Shown: positions 2,708-8,054 of the stretch, piece by piece | How positions within the stretch are numbered: position 1 is the first letter of the stretch | Layout: the number at the start of each line of letters is the position of its first letter | From: Deltaproteobacteria bacterium | GTDB lineage: Bacteria; Bdellovibrionota; Bdellovibrionia; Bdellovibrionales; Bdellovibrionaceae | Direction of reading: 5' to 3' | NCBI GenBank assembly: GCA_017302835.1 | Contig: JAFLCC010000005.1 | Location: 248,001 to 312,000, forward strand | DNA: 64,000 nucleotides | Made by a program: the position numbers and the translations under genes | Notes under the pieces: generated by a model | What the model was told of the DNA's origin: nothing | Seen by the model: only the letters and a program-made list of their open reading frames with translations | Database searches by the model: none

Positions 2708-4045
2708 TCAAAAACTTGATTTTATTTTTTCAAGAAAAAGGATGCTGAAATGTTGGGGATTTTCCCTTTCTTGAGCATAGATCTTTCTTCTTACATCTAA
2801 AAACGAGGGTCGTTCTTTTCCTGGTTGAGGACGACATTCGATATCAACCCATTCATGGAACATTAGCAGAAAAGATTCGATAGGGATTTTTTCAGGTAAA
2901 ACCTGATTGGGAAATCCCGTTCGATCTGCTTTTTCATGGGTGCATAAAATGATTTCTTTCACCTTCTCTGAAAGCTGTAACTTTCGCTCTAATAAGGCAT
3001 TGAGGCTTATAACAGGATGGCTTTGATAGATTTGTAAATCGTCTAAAATGAGCCTCTTACGACCCTCTAAGGTATTAATATAATTTAACGAAGCTGGGGA
3101 TAAATCTAACAAACCAATATCACAGAATAACCCTGCCATTAAGATATCTTTTGGGTCTCCGACATGGGTCCGAAAACTTGTTAAAGCGGCCAGACAAGCG
3201 ATCACCATAGAGCGATCAGTGACACCCATGCTGCCAAATATGGACCTGTCAATAATTTCCCAGGGGTCCAAGACTTGAATTAGATTTTTCAAAAGGTTAT
3301 CGCAAAGTTCAGAAAATTTTTGAATCAAATCTTTGCCTTTTCCAAAGGACCCGGATTCTGCTTGATCTGTTAAAGTGAGCACTAAGTTTACATGAATGTT
3401 GGCTAGAGTTTGCAGTTGAACTCGACATCGACGGGACACACCTGTCGCAGAGCTATCTTGTTGATCGTTGATGTATTTTGAAAAAAGTTCTACTTGAGAT
3501 CGACGAACTTGAAGGTCCTCAGCTAACTTTAATTTATCAAGTCTTGGTTGATTTATCAAGGTCCCTGGGTGAATCACGGGAACAATTTTGTTATTTAATT
3601 TAAGTCTTGTGTAGACGGCAAAGTCGAGGACAGTTCCTTCTTTGAAATCATCGGCCCCTACAGGAATAAAACTTGTTTTAACCACTTGATTTAAAATATA
3701 TTCCAGTCGGATGGTTGTTAAATAGGCCGGAGCTAAAATAACGAAATTCCCTCCAGATTTTTTTACGAATAAAGCATCGGAAATGCTCATTCTTTTTGCG
3801 GCGAGAACCAAAATAAAAGCATCGGCAAAAAACTGACGAAGTGTTTGTACCTGACCGGCAACTTCTTCTTTTGCCTCAATATCGACGACAGAGATGAGTA
3901 TTAGTTTGGGAGTTAACTTCCCACTCACATCAATAACATCATCCAAGGCTTCATAACTAACCCAAGGTGATTGGGTGAAGTCCACAGCTTCTTTAAGTCG
4001 GTTCAAGAAATGATCTTTTACAGAAATGGAAATGATTTCACTCAC
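2708..4045 (-). CDS. Degenerate HD-GYP domain protein with N-terminal receiver-like region
   Basis: Last gene of a six-gene minus-strand signalling operon. The first about 120 residues look like a receiver-type alpha/beta fold without a clear phospho-acceptor. The C-terminal half (about 250-445) follows the HD-GYP layout: GLFCDIGLLDL stands where HDIGK is expected, YQSHPVISLNALL matches the Hp..g segment, and THEKADRTGFP stands where HHE..DGxGYP is expected. The HD histidine is Cys, the following Lys is Leu, and the first His of HHE is Thr. Metal-dependent cyclic-di-GMP hydrolysis is therefore unlikely, and a binding or scaffold role fits better. It starts 2 bp after the receiver gene stop, indicating one transcript. 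Confidence 0.75.
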   Translation of the reverse strand: MSEIISISVKDHFLNRLKEAVDFTQSPWVSYEALDDVIDVSGKLTPKLILISVVDIEAKEEVAGQVQTLRQFFADAFILVLAAKRMSISDALFVKKSGGNFVILAPAYLTTIRLEYILNQVVKTSFIPVGADDFKEGTVLDFAVYTRLKLNNKIVPVIHPGTLINQPRLDKLKLAEDLQVRRSQVELFSKYINDQQDSSATGVSRRCRVQLQTLANIHVNLVLTLTDQAESGSFGKGKDLIQKFSELCDNLLKNLIQVLDPWEIIDRSIFGSMGVTDRSMVIACLAALTSFRTHVGDPKDILMAGLFCDIGLLDLSPASLNYINTLEGRKRLILDDLQIYQSHPVISLNALLERKLQLSEKVKEIILCTHEKADRTGFPNQVLPEKIPIESFLLMFHEWVDIECRPQPGKERPSFLDVRRKIYAQERENPQHFSILFLEKIKSSF

Positions 4046-4047
4046 AT

Positions 4048-4437
4048 CTATGCCTTTTTTTGAGAAAAAACGTCTCCCATTTTTTTCTGCAAGACGGGAA
4101 TCGTTGCAGGTTTAATAATATATTGGGAAATTCCAAGACTGATGGCCTCGCTGATTAATTTCCCATCTGTTTCTGCGGAAAGCATGATAATGGGAAGGGA
4201 TCCAAATCGATCCTCTCTTTTCATGGCTTTCAACAGCTGAATGCCATCCATTTTAGGCATGACAATGTCTAGAAATAAGAGCTCAATCTTTTCTGATTTT
4301 AAAATGCTCAAGGCCTCTTCACCATTAGAGGCTTCTTTTATATCAGTATAGCCCATATTATGCAGAGACTTTTGCAACCAGACTCTGATTCCCTTCATAT
4401 CATCGACAATTAATATTCTTGTGTTAAGTGGAAACAT
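4048..4437 (-). CDS. CheY-like stand-alone response regulator receiver
   Basis: A single REC domain of 129 residues with no output domain. It shows the acidic pair (ILIVDDMK), the phospho-acceptor Asp in LLFLDIVMPKMDG, the Thr/Ser switch residue in IIMLSAE, and the conserved Lys in YIIKPA. It should receive phosphate from the operon's HPt/CheA-like kinase and act through protein contacts. Its start overlaps the end of the upstream CheX-like gene by 14 nt, and it is followed after 2 nt by the HD-GYP-like gene. This is consistent with tight co-translation and a shared pathway. Confidence 0.9.
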   Translation of the reverse strand: MFPLNTRILIVDDMKGIRVWLQKSLHNMGYTDIKEASNGEEALSILKSEKIELLFLDIVMPKMDGIQLLKAMKREDRFGSLPIIMLSAETDGKLISEAISLGISQYIIKPATIPVLQKKMGDVFSQKKA

Positions 4438-5179
4438 GGTTCACCTCTTCATTTAATTCCAATTCAAAATTTAGTTTATGATCAATTTCAAAAGACCAAC
4501 GATAGAGAGTCGGCCCCTTAGCCATTTCATTTTGGGAGGATAATTCTTCGGGGATGCCGATCTGTATTTCTTGATTTAATTTGTTTTCTCGGAGAATGGG
4601 TCTCAGAAGTCCGCAAAATAGATTTAATACTTCAGCAACTAAATCACTGGGAGGATAATTTTTAATTCCTTCTTTAGGAAATTGTAATATTTTATCTCCG
4701 CAAGCATTAAGCCCCTCTTGACTCATTTTAAGAGTCAAGAGATAAGTACTATTTGCCCTGTAGACCTCAACAGCAGCCTGGGCAGTTGAGGTAAACTCTT
4801 TGGTATGTTTGACTCGTTGGCTTTTTGGGAAAAAATGTTCCCAAAAAATTTCAATAAGTGAATTTAAAATGGAATCGAAGTCTTTCTCATTAATTTTTTC
4901 ATAATTAAACGGGGGTTTGCTAATAAAAAATATTTTCCTTTTATCGCTTTGATCTACTAAGGCTTCAAAACCTGGGGCTGCAATTAAAATAACTCTGGAA
5001 GAAATTTTAATTATTTTTTTTAACAAGGGCTTAAGTCGATCGAAATCTTGACTGGCATCGTCGGCGTTGGACAAGGTAATGATGCATTCGCTGCCGGGTT
5101 TTAAAATAGTGACGATATTTTCGAGATCCTCTTCTGTGACCTTTCTTTTTTTGAGATTAAACTCCTGCGCTTCTGTCAT
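4424..5179 (-). CDS. CheX/CheC-like phosphatase-fold protein with N-terminal extension
   Basis: A 251-residue cytoplasmic protein. The segment DLVAEVLNLFCG matches the CheC/CheX/FliY active-site pattern [D/S]-x3-E-x2-N, and a Pro follows 24 residues after the Asn (the usual spacing is about 23), within a C-terminal half that looks like a CheX alpha/beta fold. Proteins of this group dephosphorylate CheY-P. The N-terminal about 120 residues resemble a receiver-like fold but lack a clear phospho-site. A good SD (AAAGGA) precedes the ATG. It sits between two receiver genes, as expected for a receiver phosphatase. The assignment is by motif only; a non-catalytic relative is possible. Confidence 0.6.
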   Translation of the reverse strand: MTEAQEFNLKKRKVTEEDLENIVTILKPGSECIITLSNADDASQDFDRLKPLLKKIIKISSRVILIAAPGFEALVDQSDKRKIFFISKPPFNYEKINEKDFDSILNSLIEIFWEHFFPKSQRVKHTKEFTSTAQAAVEVYRANSTYLLTLKMSQEGLNACGDKILQFPKEGIKNYPPSDLVAEVLNLFCGLLRPILRENKLNQEIQIGIPEELSSQNEMAKGPTLYRWSFEIDHKLNFELELNEEVNHVST

Positions 5180-5194
5180 TGATAAATCCTTTTC

Positions 5195-5581
5195 CTATTT
5201 TATATTTCCAGAGGCTCGGCTCAAAACAACGCGAATGGCTTCGCGTATTTTATCTCCTTGAGGAGGTTTCGTCATCCATGCCATCACTCCAGCAGCTTTA
5301 GCCCGGGCCTTTAAGTCACTATTTCCTTCAGTGGAAATTACAAAAATAGGCAGGGTTTTTCCTTCCTCCAATTGCCTGATTTGTTCACACATGGTGATTC
5401 CATCCATATTTGGCATATTCACATCAGTGAGAATCAAAGAGATTTTTGGATTTTCTTTGAACTTGGCTATTCCTTCAAGACCGTCAGAAGCATCCGTAAT
5501 TACATGACCATCAGGTTCTAAAATAGACTGAAGTATTTTTCTTATTGTCATTGAATCATCAACTACAAGTATATTTGCCAT
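5195..5581 (-). CDS. CheY-like chemotaxis-type response regulator
   Basis: A single receiver of 128 residues, closer to classical CheY than its downstream paralogue. It has ILVVDDSMTIRKIL, LILTDVNMPNMDG with the phospho-acceptor Asp, PIFVISTEG with the switch residue, and AWMTKPPQ with the conserved Lys. An AGGAG ribosome site precedes the ATG. It lies directly downstream of the CheA-like kinase gene (45 bp) and upstream of the CheX-like gene (15 bp). It is the probable direct phosphotransfer partner of the kinase. Confidence 0.92.
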   Translation of the reverse strand: MANILVVDDSMTIRKILQSILEPDGHVITDASDGLEGIAKFKENPKISLILTDVNMPNMDGITMCEQIRQLEEGKTLPIFVISTEGNSDLKARAKAAGVMAWMTKPPQGDKIREAIRVVLSRASGNIK

Positions 5582-5625
5582 TAATTCTCCTAAGTCAGTA
5601 AAGGACTCTTGTCGATTGCTTCATT

Positions 5626-7500
5626 TTATTCATTGGTTTGAAAATGTAACTCAAATCGCGTGACCCCTTGGGCTGTTGAGGTGGCCTTGCAATTTCCTCC
5701 ATATTTTATACATATTTCTCGAACAGCTGCTAACCCTATCCCTCGGCCACTCATTTCTGAAATATTTGTTTTAGTTGAAAATCCAGGAGAAAAAATAAAG
5801 TCATTGATTTCTCCTTCAGATAGAGATTTGGCATGATCCCTAGTAATTAATTGTTGGGAAATAGCCTTTTCTAGTATTCTAGATGTATTAAGTCCGCCGC
5901 CATCATCTTCCATAAATAAAATTAAACCGTCATTAGATAAGATCGAACCAAGATGTAAAAGTCCTGTAGCCCCTTTTCCTTTAGCAACTCTTTCTGTAGG
6001 AGTTTCAAAACCATGATCAATTGAATTGTTTACGAGGTGGCTTAAACAGACTCTAATTTCACTCAACAGATCCAAATCTAACTGAAAATCACGATCCCAG
6101 GAAAAAATAATTTTTATTTTTTTACCTGTTTGTGAACTTGCAGTGCTGACCATTCCCATCACCATGGGTTCTAACTGACTTAAAGAGCTGAGTGAGATTT
6201 TTTTCAGATATTTTTCAAACTCGGTCTTGGATCGTTGGTTTGATACGGATTCTTTATAAAGTTTCCAAGGAGACCGATTTAAACTTTCGAAGTGCTGAGT
6301 TGGGGTGACCTTTGTACTGGCGTTTAGGATTTTCTCTAAGGCGACGATTTCTCGCCACTCATTAAGAAGTGCATCAATATTTGTATAGACAACTTCCCAA
6401 GAAAAATTATCTGACTCGCGCAATTTTGACTCAAAGGAATGGGTGATTTTTTGTAAATTACTTAATCCTGCCAATCGGGAATTTGCTTTCACCGAGTGAA
6501 GAACATTCATAAATGAATCGGATGTTTGTGTTAAGACACAGTCGCCTAGATCCGTAAAGAGGCGATGTAAATCAGACATCACAATTTCAAGAATCTGGGG
6601 GTCGGTTCTTTTTAATTGTATGGCGCGTTCTATGGATTGATCTTGAAGTAGTCGGCCCTTCTCATCGGCCTTTTCAGCTTCGACAATGAGCGTGCGATCC
6701 TCTATGATCACCAACAGACCCGAAACTTGTTCACCCCACGCAATAGATTGAACTTTAATTCCAAGATATCTACCTTTGTCGCCAATGGAATGAGGCAGGG
6801 GGTAGTAGATTTGTTTTGGAAAGGTCTCTGAAAGAATATCAAAATCTCTTAACGGACGATTGATCGAATTCATCATGGTTTTAAAACCTTCACGACCAGC
6901 GACGTCCATCCATTCCTTTGCGGGATCAAAAATAATTTCTTGGAGTGTTTTCCCAGCAATGTCTGATCTGCCTAACATAAAGCGAGTGTATTCAGAAAAA
7001 GCATCATCAATTCTTCCCAAAGAATTGACTGTAAAAATGCCTAAAGGAATACTTGAAAAAATATCATTTATTTTTTTCTGATAGGTCCTTAACAAAGTGA
7101 TGTCACGACCTTGAAGTGAATACAAAACTAAGTCTTTTTCAGCGAAATCTCCAAATCTGGAAACGGACCAAAGATAGGTTTTCTCAGAGCCTCGAACAAT
7201 AATTGGCATTTCAAAAGAGGATACATCTTTATCAGTGACGAGCCTTAACAGATGCCCTTGAATAAGGTTCCACTCTTCGCTTTCGATATGAGTGCTAAAG
7301 GAATAGCCAATGACTTGTTCTGGAACCAGACCAAAAAATTTACAACTTTCATGATTTGATTTAAAGATCCTTCCACGGCCATCAATGACTAAAAAAAGAT
7401 CTGGAAGGGTTTCAATGATCATTTCGGAGTTCTGTTTAGATCTTTCGATCAATTGAATTATTTGGTAACTTGCTTGGATGTCTAAACTTTGATTGATCAT
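5626..7500 (-). CDS. PAS-PAS-HPt-HATPase hybrid sensor kinase, CheA-like
   Basis: A 624-residue cytoplasmic kinase with no membrane segment. Two PAS-like sensory regions (about 25-140 and 145-275) come first. A histidine phosphotransfer domain (about 300-390) follows, with His335 in VLHSVKANSRLAGL. A CheA-type ATPase completes the protein: N box LSHLVNNSIDHGFE, then PTERVAKGKG, the G1 box MEDDGGGLN, FSPGFSTK and SGRGIGLAAV. It ends shortly after the ATPase, so the CheW-like docking domain of true CheA is missing, as is a recognisable P2. This suggests a soluble kinase that senses through PAS rather than a receptor array. The ATG overlaps the upstream CheX-like stop by 4 nt. Confidence 0.87.
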   Translation of the reverse strand: MINQSLDIQASYQIIQLIERSKQNSEMIIETLPDLFLVIDGRGRIFKSNHESCKFFGLVPEQVIGYSFSTHIESEEWNLIQGHLLRLVTDKDVSSFEMPIIVRGSEKTYLWSVSRFGDFAEKDLVLYSLQGRDITLLRTYQKKINDIFSSIPLGIFTVNSLGRIDDAFSEYTRFMLGRSDIAGKTLQEIIFDPAKEWMDVAGREGFKTMMNSINRPLRDFDILSETFPKQIYYPLPHSIGDKGRYLGIKVQSIAWGEQVSGLLVIIEDRTLIVEAEKADEKGRLLQDQSIERAIQLKRTDPQILEIVMSDLHRLFTDLGDCVLTQTSDSFMNVLHSVKANSRLAGLSNLQKITHSFESKLRESDNFSWEVVYTNIDALLNEWREIVALEKILNASTKVTPTQHFESLNRSPWKLYKESVSNQRSKTEFEKYLKKISLSSLSQLEPMVMGMVSTASSQTGKKIKIIFSWDRDFQLDLDLLSEIRVCLSHLVNNSIDHGFETPTERVAKGKGATGLLHLGSILSNDGLILFMEDDGGGLNTSRILEKAISQQLITRDHAKSLSEGEINDFIFSPGFSTKTNISEMSGRGIGLAAVREICIKYGGNCKATSTAQGVTRFELHFQTNE

Positions 7501-8054
7501 AGAAACTCGAATTCACCCGTGCCAACACTGGGATTTGAAATTTGTAACTGAACTAGTTTTTCTCTTGAAGAGGCTGTCATAAATTCAAAATAAAGTTGAA
7601 CGGTAAAACTTTTTCCTTCAGACTCATAAGTCGTCAGAAAGGTTTCAGAAGTAGGTGATTTAGAAAAGAAGAGATCGTCAAAGGCCCGAACCAGTAAAGG
7701 TAAAGACAATCCACTAGAAACGCCGCTGGCCTCAAAGGCTCTCTTCATGGTGCCGCCAAGTAGGTTTGCAAGCTCTTTCACGAAATCAGAAACGGTATTT
7801 TGTGATTTGTCTTCCAAACCACTCAAAGCACTTTTTCCAAGAGCTAATATATCAGATTCTTTACAATAGACTTTGATTGTTAATCTAAAATCAGAATTCG
7901 ATATAAGAATAATGGACATCCAGTTTTGAAAATACACTTCACTTTCATCATCCATCGGGTGAAATCGAATAAAATCATTCAAAAAATAGGTTTTAATTTG
8001 ATCTAAAAAATAAGTAAATATAGTCTGTGACAGTTTTTCCATTTTCTGATCCAA
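7497..8054 (-). CDS. CheX-like protein, first gene of phosphorelay operon
   Basis: A soluble protein of about 181-185 residues. SDFVKELANLLGG fits the CheX/CheC active-site pattern [D/S]-x3-E-x2-N, and a Pro lies 22 residues after the Asn, as in known CheX proteins. The flanking strands and the length are also CheX-like. It probably dephosphorylates a receiver of this operon or acts as its regulator. The annotated start is a TTG; an ATG four codons later (position 8042) is at least as plausible, and neither has a strong SD. It opens the operon, divergent from the clostripain-like gene across about 220 bp where the promoters must lie. Confidence 0.65.
   Translation of the reverse strand: MDQKMEKLSQTIFTYFLDQIKTYFLNDFIRFHPMDDESEVYFQNWMSIILISNSDFRLTIKVYCKESDILALGKSALSGLEDKSQNTVSDFVKELANLLGGTMKRAFEASGVSSGLSLPLLVRAFDDLFFSKSPTSETFLTTYESEGKSFTVQLYFEFMTASSREKLVQLQISNPSVGTGEFEFL

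Follow-up and report, generated by a model that had tools for sequence, protein, structure and literature searches.

The six tightly packed genes at one end of the window, which is the whole 64,000-nucleotide stretch analysed here, lying on contig C5 of its genome, raise the question of how a CheA-type kinase, two CheX-like proteins, two receivers and a degenerate HD-GYP protein may work together away from a receptor array, and what their output would be. All six open reading frames are on the minus strand (8054-2708), in the order X1, KIN, REC1, X2, REC2, HDG:

7497..8054, minus strand: X1, a 185 aa protein with the active-site pattern and the predicted fold of CheX
5626..7500, minus strand: KIN, a 624 aa PAS-(PAS-like)-HPt(His335)-CheA-type HATPase kinase without a CheW domain
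5195..5581, minus strand: REC1, a single-domain receiver of the X1-linked receiver clade
4424..5179, minus strand: X2, a STAS-like N-terminal domain (about 1-95) followed by a predicted CheX domain (about 98-247)
4048..4437, minus strand: REC2, a single-domain receiver whose relatives adjoin CheX and HDG genes
2708..4045, minus strand: HDG, with a Rossmann-like N-terminus, a Bd1817-like middle region and a degenerate HD-GYP domain

Two of the junctions overlap, by 4 and 14 bases, and the others leave gaps of 2, 15 and 44 bases, in agreement with the initial annotation, which had read the six genes as one operon. Both flanks carry unrelated plus-strand genes; judging from their translations, one flank holds a putative agmatine deiminase and carbamoylputrescine amidase, the opposite flank a peptidase-like ORF. 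Scans for promoters and terminators came out barely over shuffled expectation, the GC content of the operon does not depart from its surroundings, and an empty-site comparison found no clear orthologue of the flanking amidase gene in same-genus genomes. The maximum 19-residue hydropathy across the six proteins is 1.58, so that none has a plausible membrane segment and the description of the system as soluble is reasonable. Since phmmer searches of single proteins against the PDB (P0001, P0003 and P0006) gave nothing useful, the analysis turned to profiles and folds.

The kinase had been described as a CheA ATPase with an HPt domain at His335 and neither CheW nor P2, and the analysis agrees. 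PAS and HATPase_c exceed their Pfam cut-offs in KIN (HATPase 42 bits); HPt is weak there (16.7 bits, cut-off 24.6) and above cut-off in the homologue from genome G120 (locus L133), and the HPt histidine is residue 335, in LHSVKANS. The ATPase has its N and G boxes, aligns with CheA P3-P4 structures (E 1e-30) and forms the end of the protein, with no Pfam match to CheW in KIN, and NCBIfam gives CheA as the best relative. Like CheA, KIN joins an HPt to a P4-type ATPase and would relay to single receivers; unlike CheA, its HPt sits in the middle of the protein after the PAS regions, the CheW domain (P5) is missing, P2 was not found and no dimerisation domain is matched by Pfam.

The same architecture recurs beside relatives of X1. 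A Pfam scan of 13 kinases from X1 loci returned HATPase and HPt, with no CheW and no H-kinase_dim in any of them. By a dedicated CheW profile, the domain occurs in none of 20 X1-linked kinases, some of which are near-duplicates from one genus, as against all five HDG-linked kinases of other loci; the kinases at HDG loci in other genomes have HPt, H-kinase_dim, HATPase and CheW. Because the X1-linked kinases of other genomes lack CheW as well, the array-free state looks like a property of such X1 loci and not a chance loss. A tree of the ATPase domains was poorly resolved, a kinase-only profile scan of the contig collection gave no match, and matches to the kinase on plasmids were confined to the CheA-type ATPase region. 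Two X1-linked kinases (L133:5506-8172 and L134:6376-8985) continue for about 220 residues past the ATPase, an extension that resembles, by eye, another ATPase domain in degenerate form. Some X1 loci with CheW-less kinases adjoin genes for short proteins that contain an MCP signalling domain (L045:1361-2236, L046:10221-11294, L131:6822-7892 and L135:8700-9296; the domain is confirmed by Pfam for L045 and L046), and these are possibly mini-receptors functioning without CheW.

The pattern D-x3-E-x2-N-x(21/23)-P occurs once each in X1 (DFVKELAN at 90; D90, E94, N97 and P119) and X2 (DLVAEVLN at 179; D179, E183, N186 and P210), and nowhere in the other four proteins of the operon. Both proteins fall under the Pfam CheX cut-off of 27, X1 with 20.3 bits (E 5.7e-4) and X2 with 12.0 bits (E 0.22), while an X2 orthologue reaches E 2.5e-5, again below the curated cut-off. 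Structurally, the assignment of both to the CheX fold holds. Across 20 X1 proteins the E, N, G, S and P are invariant. The X1 model, built from a 20-sequence alignment, has a pLDDT of 90 and 31 PDB matches below E 0.001, which are of CheX, CheC, FliY or FliM type with CheX at the top (E 7e-9); the X1 sequence profile also recovers canonical CheX. The X2 model, from four sequences, has a pLDDT of 76, and all 13 of its PDB matches below E 0.001 are CheX or CheC-like CheX-fold proteins (CheX E 1e-6), with the CheX part at residues 98-246 (Z 12.7). The initial annotation had recognised two CheX-like proteins from their active-site motifs and following proline, and the predicted folds, whose best PDB matches are CheX, agree. 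Of the profiles it had proposed, HATPase and the HD_5 of HDG score above their Pfam cut-offs, HPt and both CheX matches below.

The first 95 residues of X2 show a likeness to STAS domains (Z 6.9 to 3t6o, which chance alone can reach), and in the L081 relative of X2 a STAS_2 match, below the Pfam cut-off, precedes a clear CheX domain. X2 is thus a probable STAS-CheX fusion, graded so because the call is based on that Z score and that sub-cut-off match. X1 and X2 share with CheC, CheX and FliY, as in the Borrelia CheX-CheY complex 3hzh, the fold, the D-x3-E-x2-N...P motif and a CheY-like receiver neighbour. They differ from known CheX in their position under the Pfam cut-off, in the STAS-like domain in front of X2 and, for X1, in pairing with PAS kinases and in a conserved acidic C-terminal tail.

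This tail, GEFEFL in the window, has a consensus of about GD/E-V/I-x-F-L/F-COOH. An acidic end closing in [DEGN][VIFAL][DENSQ][FY][LFIM] is found in 28 of 31 X1 proteins, and in two of 950 other ORFs; as both of these are weak X1 relatives, the count among unrelated ORFs is 0 of 948. The 15 canonical CheX proteins of the same loci all lack it. The final residues are disordered in the X1 model. The start of X1 is probably the ATG at 8042 rather than the TTG at 8054, and its stop overlaps the start codon of KIN (ATGA). Across 17 loci the gene downstream of X1 begins with the same N-terminal PAS module, with an overlap of exactly 4 bases at 16 loci and directly abutting genes at the remaining one, an arrangement that reads as translational coupling of X1 to the PAS gene.

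The remainder of the PAS protein varies, being a CheA-type ATPase in most loci, a HisKA-like kinase, to judge from the sequence, in L044, and apparently a PP2C/SpoIIE-like phosphatase with no kinase in L043:8501-9673 and L137:9186-10376; in L043 a receiver gene sits between X1 and the PAS gene. This variety points to X1 acting together with the PAS protein, or with its receiver, irrespective of output, and, given the PP2C-like fusions, the X1-receiver unit seems to serve differing outputs. X1 could be a separate CheX subfamily dedicated to PAS-signalling proteins, translationally coupled to them whether their output is CheA-type, HisKA-type or PP2C-type, and tethered by its tail to REC1 or the PAS protein, a proposal that we put forward as tentative. 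The C-terminal peptide of CheZ binds CheY, and tethering by the X1 tail would parallel it.

At E 0.001 the X1 profile has matches in 61 of 369 genomes of the phylum, the weakest of which are ordinary CheX, such as the window genome's own copy on contig C6. Each of the genomes G180-G182, of one genus, has eight X1 profile matches, and three X1-type genes stand in tandem in one of them (L127:7890-9832, G181). The A7-profile scan of the contig collection gave six loci, with titles naming Bdellovibrio, Pseudobdellovibrionaceae, Bacteriovoracaceae, Oligoflexaceae and one 'bacterium'; since for X1 it used two short patterns only, absence elsewhere is weak evidence. No X1 match was found on plasmids.

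Both receivers match Pfam Response_reg and retain the acidic pair, Asp, Ser/Thr and Lys, so the two single receivers of the initial annotation have complete catalytic residues. Of 37 receivers placed in a tree, 17 are X1-linked or REC1 entries, and 15 of these, the window's REC1 among them, form one clade (100/100 support); outside it are L132_9, which follows a second kinase next to X1, and the long-branched L143_6. REC2 of the window and its partner in genome G210 also lie outside this clade, and the position of REC2 among the receivers found with HDG genes is not strongly resolved. The pairing of X1 with REC1 is supported mainly by this clade, and that of X2 with REC2 solely by gene neighbourhood. 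The separate occurrence of the corresponding gene sets elsewhere supports both pairings.

The operon is a union of two older modules. Module A (X1, PAS-kinase and REC1) recurs across Bdellovibrionota, and module B (REC2, CheX and HDG) is found alone or beside CheW-bearing CheA (5 of 5). In the 60 related genomes searched, X1 relatives adjoin REC1-like receivers and CheA-like kinases, and HDG relatives are solitary or within a REC-CheX-HDG trio; one such trio is a second set in the window genome itself (L092, contig C6), with a CheX of 78 bits. A synteny survey of Bdellovibrionota, as initially envisaged, found the full set in G120, of another family in the same phylum (X1-kinase-REC1-REC2-X2-HDG), and five of the six genes in G210, of the same family and another genus (X1-kinase-REC1-X2-REC2), where no HDG adjoins; HDG may for this reason not be the operon's sole output. 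The X2 profile has strong matches in the window, G120 and G210 only.

We consider it fairly probable that the operon encodes a phosphorelay derived from chemotaxis and able to do without a receptor array, with one kinase, two receiver-phosphatase branches and HDG as effector. The PAS part of KIN would sense an internal signal, KIN would autophosphorylate on His335 and the phosphate would pass from there to REC1 and REC2. X1 would reset phosphorylated REC1 and X2 phosphorylated REC2, giving two branches with separate decay. X1 would be co-produced with the kinase, its acidic tail possibly tethering it to REC1 or the PAS protein, and REC2 or X2 would switch HDG, presumably an effector without catalysis of its own.

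The earlier observation that no receptor, CheW or CheB gene is nearby extends to the whole of contig C5, where no MCP, CheW or CheB gene was found; all copies found are on other contigs (CheW on C11 and C2, MCP on C3, C4, C11 and C17, CheB on C11). The ORFs inspected alongside the operon include no CheR. Because KIN also lacks a CheW domain, we infer that the operon is independent of receptor arrays. Cross-talk with an array system is possible, since the genome has a CheA/CheW/MCP cluster and the second REC-CheX-HDG set. Taken further, the operon could be a side branch of chemotaxis, in which the array CheA encoded on C11 mainly phosphorylates REC1 and REC2 while X1, X2 and the receivers serve as phosphate sinks that tune the motor. 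The CheA, CheW, CheB and MCP genes on C11 and the HDG genes that adjoin CheW-bearing CheA in other genomes speak for such a role; however, the operon has a kinase of its own and the partners at X1 loci are PAS proteins or kinases devoid of CheW and not CheW-bearing CheA, and we regard this explanation as unlikely.

The self-contained relay stays the preferred reading, with HDG as the probable output of the operon. The initial annotation had proposed an array-free system with a new output. Its array-free part stands, the X1-linked kinases being uniformly without CheW, while the output is not confined to array-free systems, because REC2-CheX-HDG occurs both kinase-free and beside canonical CheA/CheW/MCP clusters. 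Such a setting (L081, G046) likewise holds a STAS-CheX fusion, a receiver and an HDG homologue together; there, in contrast to the window, a complete CheA with CheW domains serves as the kinase, genes for CheW and receptors come next, and the HDG homologue keeps its HD motif.

HDG itself matches Pfam HD_5 (35.3 bits, cut-off 27.2) and has lost the HD histidine, as expected of the degenerate HD-GYP protein first described. It carries CDIGL and THEKADRTGFP where HDIGK and HHExxDGxGYP would make up the metal site. Among solved structures it is closest to Bd1817, an unconventional HD-GYP protein that the HDG family profile matches at E 1e-20 over the middle and HD-GYP regions, about 280 residues, other HD-GYP structures being weaker; unlike Bd1817, HDG has an extra N-terminal Rossmann-like region and lacks metal ligands, the HD histidine among them. 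This kinship, and the retention of the D of HD, the HP histidine and the HE of the HHE region, would suit an HDG that still hydrolyses c-di-GMP at an unusual metal site, the relay simply setting the c-di-GMP level. Yet the HD and first HHE histidines are absent here and from most of the family, both motifs being intact only in L081 among 19 members, which makes an active HDG quite improbable. From its motifs, we infer instead a non-catalytic effector, probably one that binds a protein or a nucleotide. In a genome of the same family, 3.4 kb separate a REC-CheX-HDG trio from a Bd1817 orthologue (L093:7626-14317), and this connects HDG proteins with a Bdellovibrio locus that has been studied.

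The distribution of the operon is patchy, since neither X1 nor X2, nor a full-length relative of KIN, was found in the five same-genus genomes searched. A second copy of the operon in G120 has its HDG reduced to a remnant, the start only, in frame with periplasmic binding-protein-like sequence (L134:3711-4640), a sign of decay in that copy. That the window's operon is itself decaying or neutral, under little selection, as these absences and the broken HDG might suggest, is very improbable given six intact frames, catalytic motifs kept over deep divergence (20 to 40% identity) and a gene order that repeats in other genomes.

Every component comes from a known family, but there appears to be no earlier description of their combination, of the X1 tail or of the PAS coupling. 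A literature search found no paper on the operon, the X1 subfamily, the locus tags Bd1821-Bd1824 or CheX with HD-GYP here, which is weak evidence because subscription papers were mostly outside the search. Relative to the initial annotation, the STAS-like part of X2, the X1 tail, the coupling of X1 to PAS genes and the two-module origin are new. Altogether, the operon offers a natural example of CheA chemistry separated from receptor arrays, in which a single kinase would serve two receiver-phosphatase pairs in parallel. It is an experimentally small system for the operation of a CheA-type kinase without CheW and for the division of labour between two CheX proteins, and the X1 tail, being conserved, offers a candidate docking motif open to direct testing. 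It also bears on the way in which predatory-type bacteria would have come to use a degenerate HD-GYP protein as an output.
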